Position numbers and translations under genes: made by a program
Shown here: positions 10,587 to 44,043 of the stretch, in pieces
Numbering within the stretch: the first letter of the stretch is position 1
Layout: each line of letters starts with the position of its first letter
Notes under the pieces: model-generated
The model's database searches: none
What the model was told of the DNA's origin: nothing
What the model saw: the letters and a program-made list of their open reading frames with translations, nothing else
IMG/VR virus record: IMGVR_UViG_3300042868_013143
Coordinates: 1-52,935 of that record
Source of the DNA: a virus
Length of the DNA stretch: 52,935 nt
Strand: one strand, 5' to 3'

Positions 10587-11942
10587 ATGGAAAATTTACA
10601 AAAAACATTTAATAAAAGAGCTTATATAAATGATTTAATGTCTAAAATGGAGGTGGACAAATTCAATTTTGGAGAAGTAATGACGCCTTTTGATTTAGTG
10701 GAGGAAATGTTGAATTTATTGCCAAATAAAATTTGGGAAAATCCAAATCTTAAATGGTTTGACCCATGTGGTGGAGTAGGTAATTTTCAGGTTATTATAG
10801 TGGAAAGGTTAATGGAGGGTTTGAAAGGCTTTATTCTAAACGAGGAAGATAGGTATAGGCATATATTAGAAAACATGATTTATGTGTGCGAAATTCAAGA
10901 AAAAAACACATCTGTTTTTTTAAATATTTTTAATCCAAATAAACTTTTAAATTTAAATTGTTATAATGGAGATTTTTTATCTGAAGACTTTGACTCATTT
11001 ATGAATAATGTTTGGGGCTTAGAAAAGTTTGATGTATTAATAATGAATAGCCCCTATCAAATATCATCAAATGGAAACCATCATAGAAGCCGACCTCTTT
11101 ATCATCTTTTTATTGAAAAGGGCTTAAGGATATCTGACAAATTAGTTAGTGTAAACCCTAGCAGGTGGATGACAAAATCTATGGGACTGGAAGAGTTTAG
11201 AAAAAATATGCTAAGTAGAAATGATATAAAATTCATAAAAAACCTAAATTTTAAAAATAAGCATAGCATATTTGGAGAGTCGGTGGAAATTAGGGGTGGT
11301 ATACATTTTTTTTTAATTGACAAAGAATATGAAGGAATGGTTAATTACGATGGCGTCCTTTGTAATCTAGGTGATTTTGATATTTTTTTAGATCAGAAAT
11401 TTCACGAGATTGTAAAGAAGTATTGTATTAATAAAAAATCTCTTAGCAATATCTGCGAATCAAATTCTTTGTTTATGAATTTTAATAATAGTAAACTTAG
11501 CAATGAGCCGAGTGAGGGTTATGTAAAATGTTATGTATCAAATCAAAAGGGAGGTATAAAGTATATTAAAGAAGAAGATATTGCAAAAAAGGGTAAAAAA
11601 TTGATAGAGTCCTGGAAAGTATTTACTCCGTTTGCATCTGGTTATGGAGTGAAGTTTAATTACTTTGGTTCTAAAATAATTGGAAAGCCAAGAGAGGTTT
11701 GTTCTAACACATTTTTAACACTAGTAGTAAATTCAGAGCAGGAGGCAGAAAGCCTTGCGTCTTATATGAATACAAGTTTTTGTTGCTTTTTCTTATCTCT
11801 AAGGAAAAAAACTCAAAATATGAATAAGAAGACGCTTCAGTGGATTCCCTTAGTTCCGTTGGATAGACAATGGACAGACGAAGATTTATTTGAGTATTTT
11901 AAATTGAGTTCCGAGGAGGTTGATTTAATTCTAAAAAAATAG
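10587..11942 (+). CDS. N6-adenine DNA methyltransferase, Eco57I/type IIG-like
   Basis: A 451-residue class I methyltransferase. Motif I is DPCGGVGNF (about 61-69), binding S-adenosylmethionine; the catalytic motif IV appears as FDVLIMNSPYQ (near 147-157), an N-S-P-Y variant of NPPY. The C-terminal half resembles a target-recognition domain with many aromatic and Lys residues. No nuclease domain or partner restriction gene is adjacent, so it is probably an orphan enzyme protecting phage DNA from host restriction. The gene is divergent from the preceding minus-strand gene. Confidence 0.85.
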   Translation: MENLQKTFNKRAYINDLMSKMEVDKFNFGEVMTPFDLVEEMLNLLPNKIWENPNLKWFDPCGGVGNFQVIIVERLMEGLKGFILNEEDRYRHILENMIYVCEIQEKNTSVFLNIFNPNKLLNLNCYNGDFLSEDFDSFMNNVWGLEKFDVLIMNSPYQISSNGNHHRSRPLYHLFIEKGLRISDKLVSVNPSRWMTKSMGLEEFRKNMLSRNDIKFIKNLNFKNKHSIFGESVEIRGGIHFFLIDKEYEGMVNYDGVLCNLGDFDIFLDQKFHEIVKKYCINKKSLSNICESNSLFMNFNNSKLSNEPSEGYVKCYVSNQKGGIKYIKEEDIAKKGKKLIESWKVFTPFASGYGVKFNYFGSKIIGKPREVCSNTFLTLVVNSEQEAESLASYMNTSFCCFFLSLRKKTQNMNKKTLQWIPLVPLDRQWTDEDLFEYFKLSSEEVDLILKK

Positions 11943-11954
11943 CTTTATAAATTA

Positions 11955-11969
11955 TCAACAACTTGTTGA
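11955..11969. repeat. Palindrome TCAACAACTTGTTGA
   Basis: A perfect 15-base palindrome centred on C11962 and followed by an A run. A close imperfect copy (ATCAACATCTTGTGGAAA) occurs at 29948-29965. The ends resemble DnaA-box halves with one mismatch. Confidence 0.45.
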
Positions 11970-11987
11970 AAAAAAAGTTTTTTTCCC

Positions 11988-12019
11988 TTGATTTTTGTAA
12001 TATAAAATGCTTATATTTG
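11988..12019 (+). promoter_or_regulatory. Bacteroidota-type promoter for ssb
   Basis: TTG (11988-11990), 21 bases, then TATATTTG (12012-12019). It lies 60 bases upstream of the SSB start. Confidence 0.5.
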
Positions 12020-12079
12020 TATAAGATTAACAACCAATGTTTAGTAGAGAGTATTTAATTAATTCAAAAAAGTAAAGTT

Positions 12080-12559
12080 ATGGACGGTTTAAATGAAGTA
12101 AAGTTAATTGGAAATGTAGGAAAAGACGTAGAGCTTAGACATTTAGAAAATGACAGAAAAGTCGCAAGAGTTGTATTAGCAACAAATAAGACTTACAAGA
12201 AACAAAATGGTGAAAAAGAAAGCAAGACTGAGTGGCACAATGTAGAATTTTGGGGTGACACAGCACAGTTTTGTGGTAATTATGTGAAAAAAGGTATGTT
12301 ACTATACATCTGCGGAGAGCTTAGAACAGATTCTTATGAAAAAGATGGTGTTAAGCAGTATAGAACAAAAATCGCTGGTTCTGAAATCAAAATTCTTTCA
12401 AACGGAAATTCAGCAACATCAACAACTAGTGTTCCTACTGCTGACTCAACAGAAGCAGCAAGACAGCAAAGTCAACAATATGTAGCAGAGCCTGCAAATA
12501 CAGCAGCAACTAGCGCTTCTTTTGCGTCTAGTGCGGTAGATGAGGATTTGCCATTCTAA
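12080..12559 (+). CDS. ssb: Single-stranded DNA-binding protein, bacterial type
   Basis: A 159-residue OB-fold SSB. The N-terminal core (residues 1-110: VKLIGNVGKDVELRH..., ...TEWHNVEFWG...) is the bacterial SSB domain. It is followed by a Ser/Thr/Ala-rich linker and the acidic tip DEDLPF, which recruits replication and repair partners. This replaces the unrelated T4 gp32. The final tip suggests it can dock host or phage SSB-interacting proteins. It has its own promoter and a strong terminator, so it is monocistronic. Confidence 0.95.
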   Translation: MDGLNEVKLIGNVGKDVELRHLENDRKVARVVLATNKTYKKQNGEKESKTEWHNVEFWGDTAQFCGNYVKKGMLLYICGELRTDSYEKDGVKQYRTKIAGSEIKILSNGNSATSTTSVPTADSTEAARQQSQQYVAEPANTAATSASFASSAVDEDLPF

Positions 12560-23051: not shown

Positions 23052-23090
23052 TTTGTTTTTTGTGTAACTTTTTTTATATTTGTACGTATA
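23052..23090 (+). promoter_or_regulatory. Promoter of tRNA array 1: overlapping housekeeping and ECF-like elements
   Basis: TTTG (23052-23055), 19 bases, TATATTTG (23075-23082) matches the Bacteroidota housekeeping form. Overlapping it, TGTAAC (23063-23068), 16 bases, CGTATA (23085-23090) matches the ECF-type element found seven times in the window. Confidence 0.7.
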
Positions 23091-23121
23091 AAAGAAAAAA
23101 ATACATATTTATAAAGGTAAA

Positions 23122-23205
23122 ATGAAAACAACAGTAACAAATAGGAGATCTAGTTGGTCGAGTTCGAGAAGAGCCGAATCAGGGATTCTATTGTCTGCGC
23201 TGTAA
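23122..23205 (+). CDS. Leader peptide of tRNA array 1 (27 codons, Ser/Arg/Trp-rich)
   Basis: Begins MKTTVT, 12 bases after a TATTTATA box (23106-23113) and about 35 bases after the array promoter. Codons 8-17 read RRSSWSSSRR (AGG AGA TCT AGT TGG TCG AGT TCG AGA AGA). The tRNAs encoded downstream read Ser UCN, Trp UGG, Ser AGY and Arg AGR, so every one of these ten codons is served by the array. Codons 19-21 overlap one strand of a hairpin that competes with the terminator at 23236. It is most likely a sensing leader rather than a functional protein. Confidence 0.7.
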   Translation: MKTTVTNRRSSWSSSRRAESGILLSAL

Positions 23206-23247
23206 AGATATAGTGCTTGAGCACAAGCTAATTTGAAACCCTGATTC
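23176..23247 (+). promoter_or_regulatory. Antiterminator helix of array 1 leader
   Basis: GAATCAGGG (23176-23184) pairs perfectly with CCCTGATTC (23239-23247), which is also the 5' arm of the terminator. The two structures are mutually exclusive. The first strand lies within leader codons 19-21. Confidence 0.65.
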
Positions 23248-23269
23248 TAAAAAAGAGTCAGGGTTTTTT
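23236..23269 (+). terminator. Attenuator terminator before array 1
   Basis: A 12-bp stem AAACCCTGATTC (23236-23247) / GAGTCAGGGTTT (23255-23266) with one G-T pair, loop of 7, followed by a T run. It lies before the gene at 23288 and the tRNA array, so it can gate transcription into them. Confidence 0.85.
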
Positions 23270-23287
23270 ATTTTAAATTAATTTATC

Positions 23288-23719
23288 ATGAGAGAAGAAG
23301 TTTATAATAAGTTGGTGCTAAAGCTAGGCGAGGAAAAAGCTGACGAAGTGCGTAAGGCTATGGATGAGGCAAATAAGCAACGAAAGAATGTTGAAAAGTG
23401 GAACAGAGAAAGAGATAAGAAATTTTTGGAAGTTGGAATTAAGAAAGAGGATTTAGAAGATTGTGCATATTATCATGGGGTTAGATTTAGAGGACATGGA
23501 ATAGCGCAGTGGGACAAGAAGCTTGATAGGTTTATAATAATAGCATATGAGTGGGGAGTTCCTGTTATTGAAAAGCTAGAACATTTTGTTGATGTTGTTG
23601 AAAAAAGATATGATGGATTTGTGCCGATAGAAGAGTTAGATAAAAATAAGTATTATGATATCAGGAAAATGGATCCTAAGAAAATTGAAGAAGAGGTAAA
23701 AAATAGAAAATTGGAATAA
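23288..23719 (+). CDS. Hypothetical 143-residue protein in tRNA array 1
   Basis: Between the attenuator and the first tRNA, so it should be cotranscribed with the array. A long charged N-terminal helix (residues 1-50, Lys/Glu/Arg-rich) is followed by a mixed domain with YHGVRFRGHG and a C-terminal Lys/Glu helix. It could act on tRNA given its context, but there is no motif for this. Confidence 0.6.
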   Translation: MREEVYNKLVLKLGEEKADEVRKAMDEANKQRKNVEKWNRERDKKFLEVGIKKEDLEDCAYYHGVRFRGHGIAQWDKKLDRFIIIAYEWGVPVIEKLEHFVDVVEKRYDGFVPIEELDKNKYYDIRKMDPKKIEEEVKNRKLE

Positions 23720-23727
23720 ATAAATAA

Positions 23728-23814
23728 GGAGGAATAAGAGCAGTTGGTCTAAGCTTGGCGGTCTTGAAAACCGTAGGCCCTAGTGGTGTGTGAGTTCGAG
23801 TCTCACTTCCTCCG
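23728..23814 (+). tRNA. tRNA-Ser(UGA)
   Basis: Acceptor GGAGGAA (23728-23734) / TTCCTCC (23807-23813), discriminator G. The anticodon loop CTTGAAA gives UGA. Long variable arm and a canonical TTCGAGT T-loop. No CCA is encoded. Confidence 0.93.
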
Positions 23815-23830
23815 CTGAAAAAAAATTGAT

Positions 23831-24010
23831 ATGCAAGAGAGAATGATGTACTTAGGTAAGGAAAAAAACAAAAAAGTATATGAAAATTTTGATGCTAATT
23901 TTGATAAGTACAAAAAAAGGGCAATTGATAAAGGGTATAAAAATCCTAAGTTAAAAATTCTCAAAGAGAAATCAATAGTGAAATTCTATGTTGTTGTAGA
24001 GATAGAATAG
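23831..24010 (+). CDS. Hypothetical 59-residue basic protein inside tRNA array 1
   Basis: An ORF of 59 codons, opening MQERMMYLGKEKNKK and ending FYVVVEIE. It is basic, with a helical N-terminus and a hydrophobic final strand. It fills the gap between the Ser and Trp tRNAs. Function unknown. Confidence 0.5.
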   Translation: MQERMMYLGKEKNKKVYENFDANFDKYKKRAIDKGYKNPKLKILKEKSIVKFYVVVEIE

Positions 24011-24026
24011 AATTTTAAAATAACAT

Positions 24027-24097
24027 ACAGATGACAGGCTTGGTGTCGGTGGGAACTCCAAATTCTTCACGAGTCGCTTCGATTGCGGCCATCTGTG
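24027..24097 (+). tRNA. tRNA-Trp(CCA)
   Basis: Acceptor ACAGATG (24027-24033) / CATCTGT (24090-24096), discriminator G. The anticodon loop CTCCAAA gives CCA, closed by a GGGAA/TTCTT stem with G-U pairs. T-arm GTCGC-TTCGATT-GCGGC. Confidence 0.85.
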
Positions 24098-24106
24098 CTA
24101 TAATAA

Positions 24107-24192
24107 GGAAGATAAAGCGACAAGGTTGTCGTCCTCGCCTGCTAAGCGTAGGGTTCTGAAAGATGAATGGGAATCGTTTTCTCTGTCTTCCG
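24107..24192 (+). tRNA. tRNA-Ser(GCU), divergent
   Basis: Acceptor GGAAGAT (24107-24113) / GTCTTCC (24185-24191). The anticodon loop CTGCTAA gives GCU, but its stem needs a mismatch or bulge. The T-loop ATCGTTT has A54 (24173) and T58 (24177) instead of T54 and A58, as though the tertiary pair were exchanged. It is assigned to Ser by the anticodon and by the extra-long variable region. Confidence 0.55.
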
Positions 24193-24207
24193 CAAAAAAT
24201 AAATTAT

Positions 24208-24282
24208 GGCTCCGTAGCTCAATTGGAATAGAGCATTGGGATTCTACCCCAACGGTTATAGGTTCGAATCCTATCGGAGTTA
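24208..24282 (+). tRNA. tRNA-Arg(UCU), first copy
   Basis: Anticodon stem TTGGG/CCCAA with loop ATTCTAC, anticodon UCU. D-loop with GG and canonical TTCGAAT T-loop. Acceptor GGCTCCG / CGGAGTT has two G-U pairs at the end. Reads AGA, the dominant Arg codon in most genes here. Confidence 0.9.
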
Positions 24283-24299
24283 CAAGGGTGAAATAATAT

Positions 24300-24374
24300 G
24301 CCCCCATAGCTCAACTGCATTAGAGCACCGTTTTTCTACAGCGTCGGTTACAGGTTGGAATCCTGTTGGGGGTA
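24300..24374 (+). tRNA. tRNA-Arg(UCU), second copy with exchanged 19-56 pair
   Basis: Acceptor GCCCCCA (24300-24306) / TGGGGGT (24367-24373). Anticodon loop TTTCTAC gives UCU, with a 4-of-5 bp stem. The D-loop has G18-C19 (24317-24318) and the T-loop is TTGGAAT, with G56 (24357). The universally conserved G19-C56 pair is thus replaced by C19-G56. Confidence 0.75.
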
Positions 24375-24385
24375 CAAAAAAAATT

Positions 24386-24423
24386 TTTGTATTTGTGTAA
24401 CATTTATTATTTTTGTTCGTATA
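24386..24423 (+). promoter_or_regulatory. Promoter of the structured RNA region: ECF-like and housekeeping elements
   Basis: TTTG (24386-24389), 18 bases, TATTTTTG (24408-24415); overlapping TGTAAC (24396-24401), 16 bases, CGTATA (24418-24423). Confidence 0.65.
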
Positions 24424-24434
24424 GATAAACAAAT

Positions 24435-24886
24435 GGCGAATTCTTTGGAGAATGATGTGCAGTCATGAGCCGTCATGCAAGGGACACCAAATCATAATAT
24501 GGTGTTAATGGATCGAAGCCCCGATTCGCCACTTTAATGTTCTTTGAAAAATTGAAAGTGAATGTGCAACGAAAGTTCTTGTAGGCATACAAGAGTGAGG
24601 TGGGTTCGAATCTCGTTTAATAATCCCAATGACATGGTGGGAGCCAAGTAGTTGAGAACACATTATATCCATTTTAGGGGAGGCGCTGATAAATTCCCCA
24701 TAATAGTGCTGAGTAAACAGGATCAGCACCACTTTCAATTGCATTAAAACCACTCAAGCGTAAAAAGGTCGTAAGTTGGGGAAAGGCACGGAGCAGATAC
24801 CAGAAATGACTCGTCAGAGGATATGGAATACGTTGACAGAAGATCCCAATGTTTTGACCCCGTGCAAGCCTCTGAGTGGTTTTTTA
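24435..24886 (+). ncRNA. Structured non-coding RNA region of three closed domains
   Basis: A 450-base stretch with no plausible protein, downstream of its own promoter and ending in a T-rich hairpin. Domain 1: 24435-24441 pairs with 24524-24530 (7 bp), enclosing hairpins 24464-24468/24473-24477 and 24484-24489/24500-24505. Domain 2: 24550-24560 pairs with 24730-24740 (11 bp), enclosing 24577-24583/24588-24594, 24624-24628/24638-24642, 24677-24681/24695-24699 and 24706-24712/24723-24729. It also holds a T-loop-like GGGTTCGAATCTC. Domain 3: 24746-24755 pairs with 24874-24883 (10 bp), enclosing 24786-24791/24860-24865 and 24813-24816/24834-24837. Whether this is one RNA or several processed ones, for example very divergent tRNAs, is open. 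Confidence 0.6.
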
Positions 24887-24889
24887 TTT

Positions 24890-24996
24890 AGTCAGGTGGC
24901 GGAGTGGCTTAACGCTGAGCATACATAGAGTCTGGGAATGTGGTATGTATGATACCTATACACGGGGACTCGCAGGTTCGAATCCTGTCCTGGTTA
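24890..24996 (+). tRNA. tRNA-like gene, class II, with expanded anticodon arm
   Basis: Acceptor AGTCAGG (24890-24896) / CCTGGTT (24989-24995), discriminator A. D-arm GCG-CGC, and a T-arm with a canonical TTCGAAT loop. Between D and T arms there are 56 bases, about 20 more than a Leu/Ser tRNA. The central helix is 24920-24927 / 24944-24951 (8 bp) with a 16-base loop. No anticodon can be assigned; an intron-like insertion is possible. Confidence 0.6.
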
Positions 24997-25020
24997 CTAT
25001 ATTTTTTGTAAAAAAATTTA

Positions 25021-41386: not shown

Positions 41387-41425
41387 TTTGTTTTTTGTGT
41401 AACTTTTTTTAATTTTGTACGTATA
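41387..41425 (+). promoter_or_regulatory. Promoter of tRNA array 2: ECF-like and housekeeping elements
   Basis: TTTG (41387-41390), 19 bases, TAATTTTG (41410-41417); overlapping TGTAAC (41398-41403), 16 bases, CGTATA (41420-41425). Nearly identical to the array 1 promoter. Confidence 0.7.
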
Positions 41426-41476: not shown

Positions 41477-41605
41477 ATGAAAACAGTATTAACATATACA
41501 GCAAATATCCCCGCTATGCCGATGAACGGCTTAGGGAATGGGTATGCCCCTGCCGATTATAGCTTGGGAGAAGCGAGTGTGTTATACTTTAAAGTAATCT
41601 TATGA
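41477..41605 (+). CDS. Leader peptide of tRNA array 2 (42 codons)
   Basis: Opens MKTVLT, like the array 1 leader (MKTTVT). Codons 12-29 comprise three Pro, three Ala, two Met, three Gly, two Tyr and one Asp among 18, plus two Asn, one Leu and one Ser. The array downstream encodes clear tRNAs for Pro, Asp, Tyr, Ala, Gly (two) and Met. The G+C-richer run suggests selection on codon identity and RNA structure. A helix at codons 32-34 can compete with the terminator that follows. It is most likely a sensing leader. Confidence 0.65.
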   Translation: MKTVLTYTANIPAMPMNGLGNGYAPADYSLGEASVLYFKVIL

Positions 41606-41646
41606 TAGATTAGATTTAAATAAAAAAATATAACAAAAGCTCGTTT
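41571..41646 (+). promoter_or_regulatory. Antiterminator helix of array 2 leader
   Basis: AAGCGAG (41571-41577, in leader codons 32-34) can pair with CTCGTTT (41640-41646), using one G-U pair. The second strand overlaps the 5' arm of the terminator, as in array 1. Confidence 0.4.
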
Positions 41647-41667
41647 CGAAAGATTCGAGCTTTTTTG
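41637..41667 (+). terminator. Attenuator terminator before array 2
   Basis: A 7-bp stem AAGCTCG (41637-41643) / CGAGCTT (41656-41662), loop of 12, followed by a T run; located 32 bases after the leader stop and 60 bases before the first tRNA. Confidence 0.8.
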
Positions 41668-41729
41668 TTTTATAAACGTTTTTTGACATATTGGTGATGA
41701 AGTTGAAAGCTAACAAGGTTAGCAAATTT

Positions 41730-41805
41730 CTGGGTGTGGAGGAATTGGTGCCTCGCCTGCTTTGGGAGCAGGAGCTTAATGCAGGTTCGAGTCCTGTCAC
41801 CCAGA
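41730..41805 (+). tRNA. tRNA-Pro(UGG)
   Basis: Acceptor CTGGGTG / CACCCAG; anticodon stem CCTGC/GCAGG with loop TTTGGGA, anticodon UGG; T-loop TTCGAGT. Discriminator A. Confidence 0.93.
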
Positions 41806-41815
41806 CAAATAAAAT

Positions 41816-41896
41816 GGCTACGGCGCATAATGGCTGGTGTACCCGACTGTCTATCGGGCGTGAATAACGTAGAGGGTTCGATTCCCTTCGTAGCCG
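41816..41896 (+). tRNA. tRNA-Asp(GUC) with long variable region
   Basis: Acceptor GGCTACG / CGTAGCC; anticodon stem CCCGA/TCGGG with loop CTGTCTA, anticodon GUC; T-loop TTCGATT. The variable region is about 13 bases (CGT-GAATA-ACG hairpin), where Asp tRNAs normally have 5. Discriminator G, as expected for Asp. Confidence 0.8.
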
Positions 41897-41942
41897 CAAA
41901 TAGCCTTAAATATCCAAGTAACCCCTTGGTGGCTTTATAAAC

Positions 41943-42025
41943 TGGAAGGTGGGTGAGTGGTTAAAACCAACAGACTGTAAATCTGTTCTCGCAAGGGTAC
42001 GGCGGTTCGAATCCGTCCCTTCCAA
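41943..42025 (+). tRNA. tRNA-Tyr(GUA)
   Basis: Acceptor TGGAAGG / CCTTCCA; anticodon loop CTGTAAA, anticodon GUA, stem ACAGA/TCTGT; long variable arm as in bacterial Tyr tRNAs; T-loop TTCGAAT. Confidence 0.92.
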
Positions 42026-42031
42026 CAACAA

Positions 42032-42125
42032 CTAGCGATGATCGAGAGGTTGAAGATGTCCGACTTGGAATCGGATGCGGGCACACAGTAGGTGTCTGCC
42101 GTGGGTTCGAATCCCGCTCGCTAGA
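42032..42125 (+). tRNA. Class II tRNA with UGG-register anticodon loop
   Basis: Acceptor CTAGCGA / TCGCTAG; anticodon stem TCCGA/TCGGA perfect, with loop CTTGGAA. Standard register gives UGG (Pro). However, the 25-base variable arm with a helix is a Ser/Leu feature, and a one-base shift would read GGA (Ser). Canonical T-loop TTCGAAT. Identity is therefore ambiguous between Ser-like body and Pro anticodon. Confidence 0.75.
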
Positions 42126-42271
42126 CTAAATTTAAAAACAATTAAAATGATAGGTCAAGGAGGCAACAGCTTGGACGCCTGAGTAAACACGATAGGGTCG
42201 AGCTAAGAAAAAAAGAAATTGGAAGTAAGAAACATAGAAAGCTTAGAAAGTATTCTGATGGTTTTAATGAG
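42126..42271 (+). other. Intergenic stretch with GGC/GCC hairpin and 11-codon ORF
   Basis: A small ORF (42147-42182, MIGQGG...) and an AGGC/GCCT stem around 42163-42178 are visible. The sequence is less A-rich than the neighbours. No tRNA fold could be made. Confidence 0.3.
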
Positions 42272-42664
42272 ATGTTTACATTCTTCCTACAAGGTTACAG
42301 AAAGGGTCTGTTTAGTTTCTGCGGATCCATCGTTGTAACAGAATTTGATGTAAATGGAGATGAAGGCAAGTTTTGTTTCAGAAGATTAGAAAATGGAGAG
42401 TACAAACCTGGTGAAATTCCCAAGACAAGACATTCAAATATTTTAAAGGGTGTTATATCAGGAAAGAAGGGCTGGGGTTTGTGGGTTGATCAATGGTCAG
42501 ATGGAATTGTTGATTGGACATTTACAGAAGAGGAAATATTAAGTGAGTTTGAAAAGAGGAGTGTTAAAATCCCCGAACCACTTCTACGAGATTTCTACAA
42601 TAGAATCGATAAGAAGAAGAGAAAGAGAAACTTAGAGTACTTTGAAATGTTGAATAAAGAATAA
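42272..42664 (+). CDS. Hypothetical 130-residue protein in tRNA array 2
   Basis: The frame is open upstream to a stop near 42140 but has no earlier start codon, so ATG 42272 (MFTFFLQGYRKGLF) is used. It has a mixed strand region with several Gly and Trp residues and a basic C-terminus (DKKKRKRNLEYF). It lies between two tRNA genes and should be cotranscribed with them. Not recognised. Confidence 0.55.
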   Translation: MFTFFLQGYRKGLFSFCGSIVVTEFDVNGDEGKFCFRRLENGEYKPGEIPKTRHSNILKGVISGKKGWGLWVDQWSDGIVDWTFTEEEILSEFEKRSVKIPEPLLRDFYNRIDKKKRKRNLEYFEMLNKE

Positions 42665-42670
42665 TAAAAT

Positions 42671-42744
42671 GGGGCTATGGTGACAACTGGCTAACACGCT
42701 GCACTTGCACTGCAGAGATGGGGAATCATACTCCTCTAGCTCCA
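42671..42744 (+). tRNA. tRNA-Ala(UGC) with exchanged 54-58 pair
   Basis: Acceptor GGGGCTA / TAGCTCC; anticodon stem CTGCA/TGCAG with loop CTTGCAC, anticodon UGC. T-arm GGGGA-ATCATAC-TCCTC has A54 (42725) and T58 (42729), where T54 and A58 are almost universal. C56 is kept. Confidence 0.85.
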
Positions 42745-42800
42745 CTAACAGAAATGGTAATCCGATACCGCAAACTGAAAACTAAAGAAAATCGGAATAA

Positions 42801-42869
42801 GGGAGTATCGACAGGGTCTGGTCGTGTCTGTAAAACATCGCCTTATTGGTTCAATTCCAATTGCTCCCA
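42801..42869 (+). tRNA. tRNA-like, class I, loop CTGTAAA (GUA)
   Basis: Acceptor GGGAGTA / TGCTCCC and T-arm ATTGG-TTCAATT-CCAAT are good. The anticodon stem CGTGT/ACATC has only three Watson-Crick pairs and one G-U. The loop gives GUA (Tyr), but the variable region has 5 bases, unlike bacterial Tyr tRNAs. The D-arm is shortened. Total 69 bases including the discriminator. A hairpin CCGAT/ATCGG lies just upstream (42762-42795). Identity uncertain. Confidence 0.5.
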
Positions 42870-42899
42870 CCAAATGGTTGATTTTGTACTTTTTTTGAC

Positions 42900-42907
42900 T
42901 ATTTATT
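42900..42907 (+). promoter_or_regulatory. TATTTATT box before the GIY-YIG gene
   Basis: Lies 15 bases before the homing endonuclease start, allowing expression apart from the tRNA array. Confidence 0.4.
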
Positions 42908-42922
42908 TAGAAATAGATAGAT

Positions 42923-43543
42923 ATGCCAAGAAAAGAAAAGAAGTATCACTTCATTTATAAAACGACGAACTTATTGAGTGGTAAGTATTACATTGGAATG
43001 CACTCCACAGAAAACCTAGAAGATGGTTATTTGGGCTCAGGAAAAAGGTTGAGATATTCCATAAATAAATATGGTGCGGAAAACCATAAGAGAGAAATAC
43101 TTGAATTTGTTGACTCAAGAAAAGAGTTAATAAATAGAGAAAAAGAAATTGTTAATTTAGATGAAGTTGCAAAAGAGGAGTGCATGAACTTAATGGTTGG
43201 AGGTAAAGGTGGTTTTACACCAAACATTCAAAAAAAAGGTATTAGTGCTTGGTTAGATAAATACAAAGGAGGAGAAAGTCATAAAGAGTGGGCTAAAAAA
43301 GGCGGAATTAAGAGGTTTGAATTATATGGGATTCCAAAAAAATTCAAACCTGATTGGGTTGGCAGAAAACACACAGAAGAAACAAAAGAAAAAATGAGAA
43401 TTTCCAGCAAAGGTAAGAGTACTGGAAGTTTAAATTCACAATACGGAACTTTTTGGATTACGAAAGATGGGATTAACAAGAAAATAAAAAAAGAAGAATT
43501 AGATTTTTTTATCCAACAAGGATGGATTAGGGGTAGAAAATAA
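42923..43543 (+). CDS. GIY-YIG homing endonuclease with NUMOD3 motif
   Basis: A 206-residue Seg-like endonuclease. The GIY-YIG domain (residues about 8-95) contains FIYKTTNLLSGKYYIGMHS, with the two Tyr and the catalytic region continuing to Glu. A DNA-binding NUMOD3 segment follows (GRKHTEETKEKMRISSKGK near 149-167) and the C-terminus is basic (WITKDGINKKIKKEE...GWIRGRK). Such genes home into phage genomes and often sit in tRNA arrays. It separates the Ala and Gly tRNAs. Confidence 0.9.
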   Translation: MPRKEKKYHFIYKTTNLLSGKYYIGMHSTENLEDGYLGSGKRLRYSINKYGAENHKREILEFVDSRKELINREKEIVNLDEVAKEECMNLMVGGKGGFTPNIQKKGISAWLDKYKGGESHKEWAKKGGIKRFELYGIPKKFKPDWVGRKHTEETKEKMRISSKGKSTGSLNSQYGTFWITKDGINKKIKKEELDFFIQQGWIRGRK

Positions 43544-43549
43544 ATTAAT

Positions 43550-43622
43550 GCGGTAGTAGCTCAGTTGGTAGAGCACCGTCCTTCCAAGTCGGGGGTCGCA
43601 AGTTCGAGCCTTGTCTACCGCT
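43550..43622 (+). tRNA. tRNA-Gly(UCC)
   Basis: Acceptor GCGGTAG / CTACCGC; anticodon loop CTTCCAA, anticodon UCC, stem with one mismatch; T-loop TTCGAGC; discriminator T. Confidence 0.9.
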
Positions 43623-43627
43623 CTAAA

Positions 43628-43778
43628 TAAGAGGCTATATAGATTTGTTACTTCTATGTGGAACAGTTGGCGCAAGCCTTCGCAGTGTTCGAATCCTGCT
43701 CCCCCGACGAGGTTTTAATTCGGGGGATAGCCAAGTGGTAAAGGCAACTGTAAGAATTACTTCTATGATTTCCTCTTA
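43628..43778 (+). tRNA. Circularly permuted tRNA gene
   Basis: The 3' half comes first: anticodon-stem strand ACAGT (43663-43667), variable arm GGC-GCAA-GCC (43669-43678), T-arm with TTCGAAT (43688-43694) and one bulged T, acceptor TCCCCCG (43700-43706), A707. After 13 bases comes the 5' half: acceptor CGGGGGA (43721-43727), D-arm GCC-GGC (43730-43745), anticodon-stem strand ACTGT (43747-43751). The acceptor halves pair perfectly (7 bp), as do the anticodon-stem halves. Outside them, TAAGAGG (43628-43634) pairs with CCTCTTA (43772-43778), and an 11-base direct repeat TTACTTCTATG occurs at 43648 and 43757. The anticodon depends on the join: GUG or GGA are possible. The long variable arm favours Ser or Leu identity. 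Confidence 0.75.
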
Positions 43779-43781
43779 AAT

Positions 43782-43854
43782 GCGATAGTAGCTCAGTTGA
43801 TAGAGTACAACCTTGCCAAGGTTGGGGTCGTGGGTTTGAGCCCCATCTATCGCT
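43782..43854 (+). tRNA. tRNA-Gly(GCC)
   Basis: Acceptor GCGATAG / CTATCGC; anticodon stem CAACC/GGTTG with loop TTGCCAA, anticodon GCC; T-arm GTGGG-TTTGAGC-CCCAT; discriminator T. Confidence 0.92.
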
Positions 43855-43884
43855 CTAAAAATGTAGATTAATATAAGTAACAAA

Positions 43885-43901
43885 GCGGGTGAAAGTCCCG
43901 C
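43885..43901 (+). repeat. Hairpin GCGGG / CCCGC
   Basis: A perfect 5-bp stem with a 7-base loop TGAAAGT between the Gly and Met tRNAs. It has T-arm dimensions but no tRNA around it; possibly a processing signal or remnant. Confidence 0.35.
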
Positions 43902-43907
43902 AAACTT

Positions 43908-43979
43908 GCCGATGTCGTATAATGATAGTACGGGTCCCTCATAAGGACTAGGTTTAGGGTTTGATTCCCTTCATCGGTA
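43908..43979 (+). tRNA. tRNA with CAU anticodon (Met, or Ile after modification)
   Basis: Acceptor GCCGATG / CATCGGT; anticodon loop CTCATAA, anticodon CAU, stem GTCC/GGAC plus one; T-loop TTTGATT. The array leader is rich in Met codons, which favours elongator Met. Confidence 0.88.
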
Positions 43980-44043
43980 CAAAAATTACAATTTTTTTAA
44001 CATGACGTTTAAATTGGTGCAAAAATTACAATTTTTTTAACAT
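43980..44043. repeat. Direct repeat, two copies 40 bases apart
   Basis: The 24-base unit 43980-44003 recurs exactly at 44020-44043, and similarity continues for another 10 bases with two substitutions. The second copy is the 3' end of the minus-strand protease gene, so the last codons of that gene are duplicated beyond its stop. The A/T runs may also end transcription from both sides. Confidence 0.7.

Follow-up and report, generated by a model that had tools for sequence, protein, structure and literature searches.

Attenuator-like leader ORFs matched to the tRNA arrays that they precede in phages of Bacteroidota-type hosts

INTRODUCTION

In the leader-peptide attenuators of enterobacteria (trp, his, thr, leu, ilv, and pheA; pheST), a short open reading frame (ORF) rich in the relevant codons is followed by an antiterminator whose 5' strand lies after the control codons and by an intrinsic terminator before the first product. 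In the Escherichia coli trp operon, the ribosome that finishes at the stop codon covers this strand (strand 2). The Bacteroid-trp RNA is a leader-peptide attenuator of Bacteroidota that belongs to an amino-acid operon, and T-box riboswitches sense the charging of tRNA and control translation genes by antitermination. For flavobacteria, leader-peptide attenuators of amino-acid operons have been reported (PMC9723704). Phage tRNAs have been described as a counterdefense against tRNA-cleaving immunity, supplied when host tRNAs are lost (PMC10264068; PMC11555353).

Here we analyze two tRNA arrays of a viral sequence of 52,935 nucleotides (IMG/VR record IMGVR_UViG_3300042868_013143, whose whole length is referred to as the window), together with comparable arrays in other phages. 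Their leaders resemble the enterobacterial attenuators in the codon-rich short ORF, in the order of control codons and antiterminator, and in the terminator before the first product. They differ from them in that the output is tRNA genes, in that the control runs are composite (up to about nine amino acids matched to the array), and in that the ORF itself contains strand 2, well ahead of its stop codon. With the Bacteroidota attenuators (the flavobacterial case and Bacteroid-trp) they share the logic and the host phylum, but those control bacterial biosynthesis, whereas the predicted targets here are phage tRNA arrays and a valyl-tRNA synthetase (ValRS) gene. Unlike in a T-box, sensing would be carried out by a translating ribosome over many codons. 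As in the counterdefense described for phage tRNAs, supply would follow upon the loss of host tRNAs, with the difference that here the loss itself would act as the inducer of the array.

None of the Rfam amino-acid leader families (Phe_leader, Thr_leader, and others) scored above the gathering threshold in the window, and Rfam scans of the window gave no match to the T-box riboswitch; the first leader of Tenacibaculum phage Gundel_1 (see below) reached 27.9 bits with Phe_leader, where 55 are needed. Full-text searches of the open-access literature found no published description of an attenuated phage tRNA operon. A term search of the eLife 2023 study (PMC10264068) found no mention of operons, promoters, or attenuation, and the paper on the genomes and tRNAs of huge phages (PMC7162821) makes no mention of attenuation. 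What is new is the output (phage tRNA arrays), the composite runs for many amino acids, and the array-by-array matching.

RESULTS

The leader of the first array

The original prediction placed a promoter, a 27-codon ORF (positions 23122 to 23205), and an intrinsic terminator before the operon of array 1, and direct reading of the sequence confirms this anatomy, with the terminator hairpin at 23235 to 23267 (Table 1). Codons 8 to 17 of the ORF are AGG AGA TCT AGT TGG TCG AGT TCG AGA AGA, and all ten are indeed read by tRNAs of the array, as had been claimed, with both AGT codons depending on the divergent tRNA-Ser(GCU). A 7-of-8 match to the set {Ser, Arg}, as found in this leader, is reached by only 0.025% of 3,927 other short ORFs from the same sequences. 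The antiterminator that had been proposed also stands: its first strand, GAATCAGGG, begins three bases past the codon run and is the exact 9-bp complement of CCCTGATTC (23176 to 23184 with 23239 to 23247), which lies within the 5' arm of the terminator. As strand 3 is common to both helices, the antiterminator and the terminator are mutually exclusive. The pairing of leader to arm amounts to −18.2 kcal/mol (z = −5.3) and is matched by none of 200 dinucleotide shuffles; the fold of the whole leader has z = −4.6, and the terminator comprises 14 pairs (about −19 kcal/mol) with a U-tract. A scan of IMG/VR for an exact synonymous version of the array-1 run recovered none, so that there is no close relative of array 1 to compare.

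With default settings, ARAGORN recovers only tRNA-Ser(UGA) and the two tRNA-Arg(UCU) genes of array 1, while two of the five tRNAs (Trp and Ser-GCU) are divergent and are missed. The tRNA-Trp(CCA), which is missed by both default ARAGORN and Rfam, has a full cloverleaf as its minimum-energy fold. The tRNA-Ser(GCU), which neither ARAGORN nor Rfam calls as Ser, has a class-II cloverleaf with the loop CTGCTAA as its minimum-energy fold and resembles the Ser(GCU) tRNA of the metagenomic megaphage LR745206. Relatives of the 143-amino-acid (aa) gene that heads the operon, and of a CorA-like gene, were sought in IMG/VR, and none were found for either; the former also lacks a Pfam match. Farther along the tRNA region (24386 to 25000), a second Bacteroidota-type promoter leads into degenerate tRNA-like genes without a leader.

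TABLE 1 Features of the two arrays in the window and leaders of related megaphages
Feature	Location	Strand	Basis or remark
Bacteroidota-type promoter, array 1, TTTG-N-TATATTTG	23052..23082	+	Pattern scan; 86% identical copy before array 2
Leader ORF 1, 27 codons, MKTTVTNRRSSWSSSRRAESGILLSAL	23122..23205	+	
Control codons 8-17 (RRSSWSSSRR)	23143..23172	+	All read by array-1 tRNAs
Array-1 antiterminator 5' strand (strand 2), GAATCAGGG	23176..23184	+	z = −5.3
Array-1 strand 3, CCCTGATTC	23239..23247	+	Common to antiterminator and terminator
Array-1 intrinsic terminator, hairpin 23235-23267 and U-tract	23235..23273	+	
143-aa ORF, first operon gene, family unknown	23288..23719	+	No Pfam match, no viral relative found
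tRNA-Ser(UGA)	23728..23815	+	ARAGORN default
59-aa ORF, no family	23831..24010	+	No Pfam match
tRNA-Trp(CCA), divergent	24027..24097	+	ARAGORN 95% threshold (-ps95) and cloverleaf minimum-energy fold
tRNA-Ser(GCU), T arm very divergent	24107..24192	+	Fold and alignment with LR745206
tRNA-Arg(UCU)	24208..24283	+	ARAGORN default
tRNA-Arg(UCU), second copy	24300..24375	+	ARAGORN default
Array-2 promoter	41387..41417	+	Copy of array-1 promoter (86% identical)
Leader ORF 2, MKTVLTYTANIPAMPMNGLGNGYAPADYSLGEASVLYFKVIL	41477..41605	+	Unrelated to leader ORF 1
Array-2 antiterminator 5' strand, AGAAGCGAGTGTGTTATAC	41569..41587	+	z = −4.6, 0/200 shuffles
Array-2 strand 3, TATAACAAAAGCTCGTTTC	41629..41647	+	
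Array-2 intrinsic terminator	41632..41669	+	−14.2 kcal/mol
tRNA array 2: Pro, Asp, Tyr, UGG class-II-like, Ala/Cys-like (42671), Gly(UCC), Gly(GCC), Met(CAU), tRNA-like remnants	41730..43980	+	
LR745206 leader HKNFSKSHKWF	Before His/Phe/Trp tRNAs		
LR745206 leader KLKYK	Before Lys tRNA		
LR745206 leader SKSSSRSSS	Before Arg(ACG)/Ser tRNAs		
LR745206 leader YESYYEE	Before Glu/Tyr tRNAs		
LR745206 leader IGNGAGAI	Before Ile/Gly/Met tRNAs		
LR745206 leader TTMNLNMTMNLTLNVVNIT	Before Asn/Leu/Val/Ile/Thr/Met/Arg tRNAs		
LR745206 leader PVNPQPQDQDP	Before Pro/Asp tRNAs		
LR745206 leader QQIQQQQINQ	Before internal Gln set		
LR745206 valyl-tRNA synthetase gene	L007 34378-35709	complement	Leader at record 35852
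LR756504 leader ILSLCLSLSLSL	Before Leu/Ser/Cys tRNAs		
LR756504 leader IAIVEIAVIGGAEEGV	Before Glu/Ala/Ile/Val/Gly tRNAs		

The second array in the window

Array 2, which was absent from the original prediction, is predicted to be under the same control as array 1. The residues Pro, Ala, Met, Gly, Tyr, and Asp of its leader are those of its array. The leader frame is kept in the array-2 relatives L005, L006, L027, and L030; relative to the array-2 leader, the within-run changes in L027 are synonymous and amino-acid changes lie past the run, while most within-run changes in L030 lead to residues that the array still serves. Two further features of such arrays were observed. A tRNA with a UGG (Pro) anticodon and a long class-II variable arm is conserved in the window (42032 to 42126), L006 (14507 to 14602), and L027 (8830 to 8925); it is an odd Ser/Leu-shaped tRNA reading Pro codons. 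ORFs lie between tRNAs inside the arrays at differing places (window, 42923 to 43543; L026, 7792 to 8298; L027, 8060 to 8698; L030, 8350 to 9226); such an ORF is annotated as an HNH endonuclease in Gundel_1, and the others are homing-endonuclease-like by eye.

Matching of leaders and arrays in related phages

The same arrangement was found in four metagenomic megaphages (634 to 735 kb), two IMG/VR contigs (G001 and G002), and the cultured Tenacibaculum phage Gundel_1, with each array having its own leader and often several attenuator-like modules per genome. The 634-kb LR745206, which was reached via a similar tRNA, has a series of such leaders (Table 1), and fitting leaders are likewise present in LR756502 (642 kb), LR756501 (735 kb), LR756504 (636 kb), G001, and G002. 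In LR756501, a composition-blind pipeline chose MKNMVRKYNDYCINDKLKMLIG, which had been overlooked by eye, before tRNAs for Ile, Cys, Asp, Asn, and Tyr. In Gundel_1, YSYSCFSSWF precedes tRNAs for Tyr, Trp, Phe, Ser, Cys, and Ser, of which the Tyr and Trp genes score slightly under the Rfam cutoff. Gundel_1 has two leader hairpins (L026, at about 7055 and 7713) and also carries the leader run NNLHIQQNNLP. The match extends to the codon box, with Arg CGN leaders accompanying Arg(ACG) arrays and Arg AGR leaders accompanying Arg(UCU) arrays, apart from one mixed case in LR756504. Thus, the comparison suggested with the original prediction, namely, that the codons of the leader should change together with the tRNA set, was fulfilled across nine phage sources, down to the codon box. 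Two side observations concern the 735-kb phage: a small ORF that by eye resembles ribosomal protein L7/L12 separates a matched leader from its tRNA array (L023, minus strand, 11496 to 12345), and two tandem tRNAs with a CUA anticodon (called Pyl), i.e., amber reading, are present at L038 (LR756501, 690585 to 690737).

For a statistical evaluation, modules were chosen blind to codon content by the presence of a terminator of −12 kcal/mol or better at most 700 nucleotides 5' of a tRNA, and the longest ATG-initiated ORF of 8 to 48 codons ending just before the terminator was taken as the leader, which yielded 38 modules in 9 sources. The longest-ORF rule took the wrong ORF for one Gln array of LR745206 and for L027, and both were kept in the main statistics as noise. 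The mean best-8-codon match of a leader to its own array was 0.747 versus 0.370 (sd, 0.042) under within-genome swaps, a value reached by none of 20,000 swaps; for nonredundant genomes only, it was 0.768 versus 0.382 (sd, 0.063), again with 0 of 20,000. In four of the five genomes tested alone (LR756504, 1/720; LR756501, 1/120; LR756502, 1/5040; G001, 1/720), the true pairing outscores every other permutation, and in LR745206 it is tied with one other. Amino acids served by an array are present in its own leader in 96% of cases versus 66% after swaps. The matching result is stable at three ARAGORN thresholds, and the counts are conservative because only ARAGORN tRNAs were included. The leaders are partly shared by descent, and the modules are not all independent, with about five lineages being represented rather than 38. 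A leader-peptide attenuator should have an ORF rich in codons for the amino acids that its operon is predicted to help supply, and the swap tests bear this out.

Terminators and antiterminators across modules

A leader-peptide attenuator should further have a short ORF between the promoter and the first product, and this is the case for arrays 1 and 2 of the window and for the 38 modules. An intrinsic terminator between ORF and product is likewise present, except that in Lys leaders (MKTKLKYKR, MKTKRKYKR, and MKKKMETKRKR, at L004 11197 to 11260, L021 33590 to 33660, and L020 530 to 600, before Lys tRNAs) the hairpin has no U-tract. A further expectation, that antiterminator and terminator exclude each other and that the antiterminator's 5' strand closely follows the control codons, is fulfilled with a reservation: shuffles were outperformed at P ≤ 0.05 by 27 of the 40 antiterminators and at P ≤ 0.005 by 23 of them (2 and 0.2 expected), but the other 13 did no better than shuffles at P ≤ 0.05. 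The antiterminator strand starts at a median of 4 codons past the best-matched run, which is approximately the position that the front edge of a ribosome would occupy if it stalled where the run ends. At its other side, strand 2 often lies 10 to 45 nucleotides ahead of the stop codon, in many leaders beyond the rear footprint of the ribosome. At the stop codon, the ribosome would therefore often fail to mask this strand in the simple manner of E. coli trp, and the unstalled state is not a plain copy of that system. Termination without a stall must instead depend on timing, on occupation of the loop by the ribosome, or on the formation of a 1:2 hairpin.

Leaders before aminoacyl-tRNA synthetase genes

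When the whole 634-kb LR745206 was scanned for the combination of promoter, ORF, terminator, and antiterminator, only nine loci were recovered: five tRNA arrays, one valyl-tRNA ligase gene, one HisRS-like gene, and two that are apparent noise. The valyl-tRNA ligase gene (NF009687; E = 9e−98) lies behind the Val-rich leader MKTINLNNLVVVNVSV with a terminator and an antiterminator. The leader MRALHTYKITIDLG, also with a terminator and an antiterminator, precedes a small basic protein and the HisRS-like gene (L014, 2085 to 3060; LR745206, 345085 to 346060); it has only one His codon, and so the residue sensed is unclear. DNA resembling phage glnS (a BLAST match only) follows the Gln tRNAs and their Gln leader at about L015 16214 to 16394 (LR745206, 408214 to 408394), and tRNA-Gln and GlnRS may both be products of this operon. 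The scheme is array specific and, as predicted from these gene contexts, extends to a phage aminoacyl-tRNA synthetase gene.

Genomes without the arrangement

The system is not universal, as some Bacteroidota phages with tRNAs lack it: no matched leaders were found in the crAss-like phage cr111_1 (26 tRNAs) or in Bacteroides phage DAC19. The crAss-like phage cr10_1 also gave none. Flavobacterium phage MaF61 and Tenacibaculum phage PTm1 gave no Rfam tRNA match. No matched leaders were found before tRNAs in two Chitinophagaceae genomes used as host controls. In nine IMG/VR loci with relatives of a neighbor gene from Gundel_1, tRNAs are present only in the Gundel_1 genome itself.

DISCUSSION

The central claim of the original prediction, leader-peptide attenuation matched to the operon's own tRNAs, gains strong support from the array-wise matching in related phages and from the repeated geometry of the antiterminators. 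We consider it very likely that these modules act by ribosome-mediated transcription attenuation in which the operon's own tRNAs are what is sensed, with translation, stalling, termination, readthrough, and induction all being inferred. The parts, their order, the matching of codons and tRNAs, and the mutually exclusive helices are established by sequence and statistics, without transcript, ribosome, or protein data. Most of what these operons make is untranslated tRNA, so that transcription and not translation must be the level of control. Each array would form one transcription unit: RNA polymerase would start at the Bacteroidota-type promoter, and translation of the leader ORF would be initiated by a host ribosome. 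With all tRNAs of the control run plentiful, the ribosome would keep up with the polymerase across the run, allowing strands 3:4 to fold as the terminator, and transcription would stop before the tRNAs. Were any of them short in its charged form, the ribosome would stall in the run and leave strand 2, a few codons downstream, free to pair with the emerging strand 3; with strands 2:3 paired, no terminator could form, and the polymerase would read on and make exactly the short tRNAs. The new tRNAs would relieve the stall, resulting in a demand-driven feedback loop.

It is conceivable that a leader of this kind is no more than a chance or low-complexity ORF, its hairpin merely ending an upstream transcript and the tRNAs being transcribed from another promoter. 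Terminators of upstream genes do precede tRNAs (14 such hairpins lie 5' of 33 tRNA starts in two Bacteroidota genomes), and some tRNAs have their own promoter, e.g., that at window position 24386. However, the failure of all 20,000 swaps, the repetition of array-by-array matching in unrelated phages, the excess of antiterminators over shuffles, and the lack of a comparable run of matching codons at the host tRNA controls leave this account very improbable. Still harder to credit is that the small protein genes heading an operon (23288 to 23719 in the window) are the real target, with the tRNAs riding along: the 143-aa ORF does precede the first tRNA of array 1, but most arrays in other phages begin directly with tRNAs after the terminator, and their leaders are matched nonetheless. 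We see equally little room for a leader RNA that binds uncharged tRNA directly, with an untranslated ORF. T-boxes likewise control translation-related genes via a terminator/antiterminator pair, yet the Rfam scans of the window revealed no T-box, the match is an in-frame run of about 8 to 15 codons from the ATG rather than one specifier codon, and within-run changes are synonymous in one array-2 relative.

More weight, although not enough for us to think it probable, attaches to attenuation that is real and senses general amino-acid starvation, with the output of tRNA being a side effect. A stalled ribosome reads charged tRNA, so a shortage of the amino acid would be a trigger too, and leader-peptide attenuation has been reported at flavobacterial amino-acid operons (PMC9723704). 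Against this, what the leaders would regulate is tRNAs and, in LR745206 at least, aminoacyl-tRNA synthetases rather than biosynthetic enzymes, and the leaders mix 2 to 9 amino acids that have nothing but the array in common. Returning to attenuation that senses the operon's own tRNAs, we suggest, more speculatively, that the natural signal is the loss or dilution of host tRNAs in infection, including that caused by tRNA-cleaving defenses, and not amino-acid starvation, for which extra tRNA would be no cure.

A broader proposal, on which we find ourselves evenly divided, is that these modules belong to a family of sensors of tRNA supply that occurs in phages of Bacteroidota-type hosts, huge as well as ordinary. 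Every array would have its own composite leader to sense the loss of exactly the tRNAs (and, in some cases, synthetases) encoded behind it, and the phage translation kit would be inducible, likely as a countermeasure to the depletion or cleavage of host tRNAs. Ribosome-mediated attenuation would thereby be extended from amino-acid synthesis to tRNA supply, with several amino acids sensed in one leader. A leader also offers a way to spot divergent tRNA genes and to predict their identity. The purpose of phage-borne tRNAs has been a matter of debate for decades; by spelling out the codons that its own operon serves, a leader would tell what the phage senses, namely, a shortage of those tRNAs, and codon compensation versus counterdefense becomes testable in a cultured phage, Tenacibaculum phage Gundel_1.
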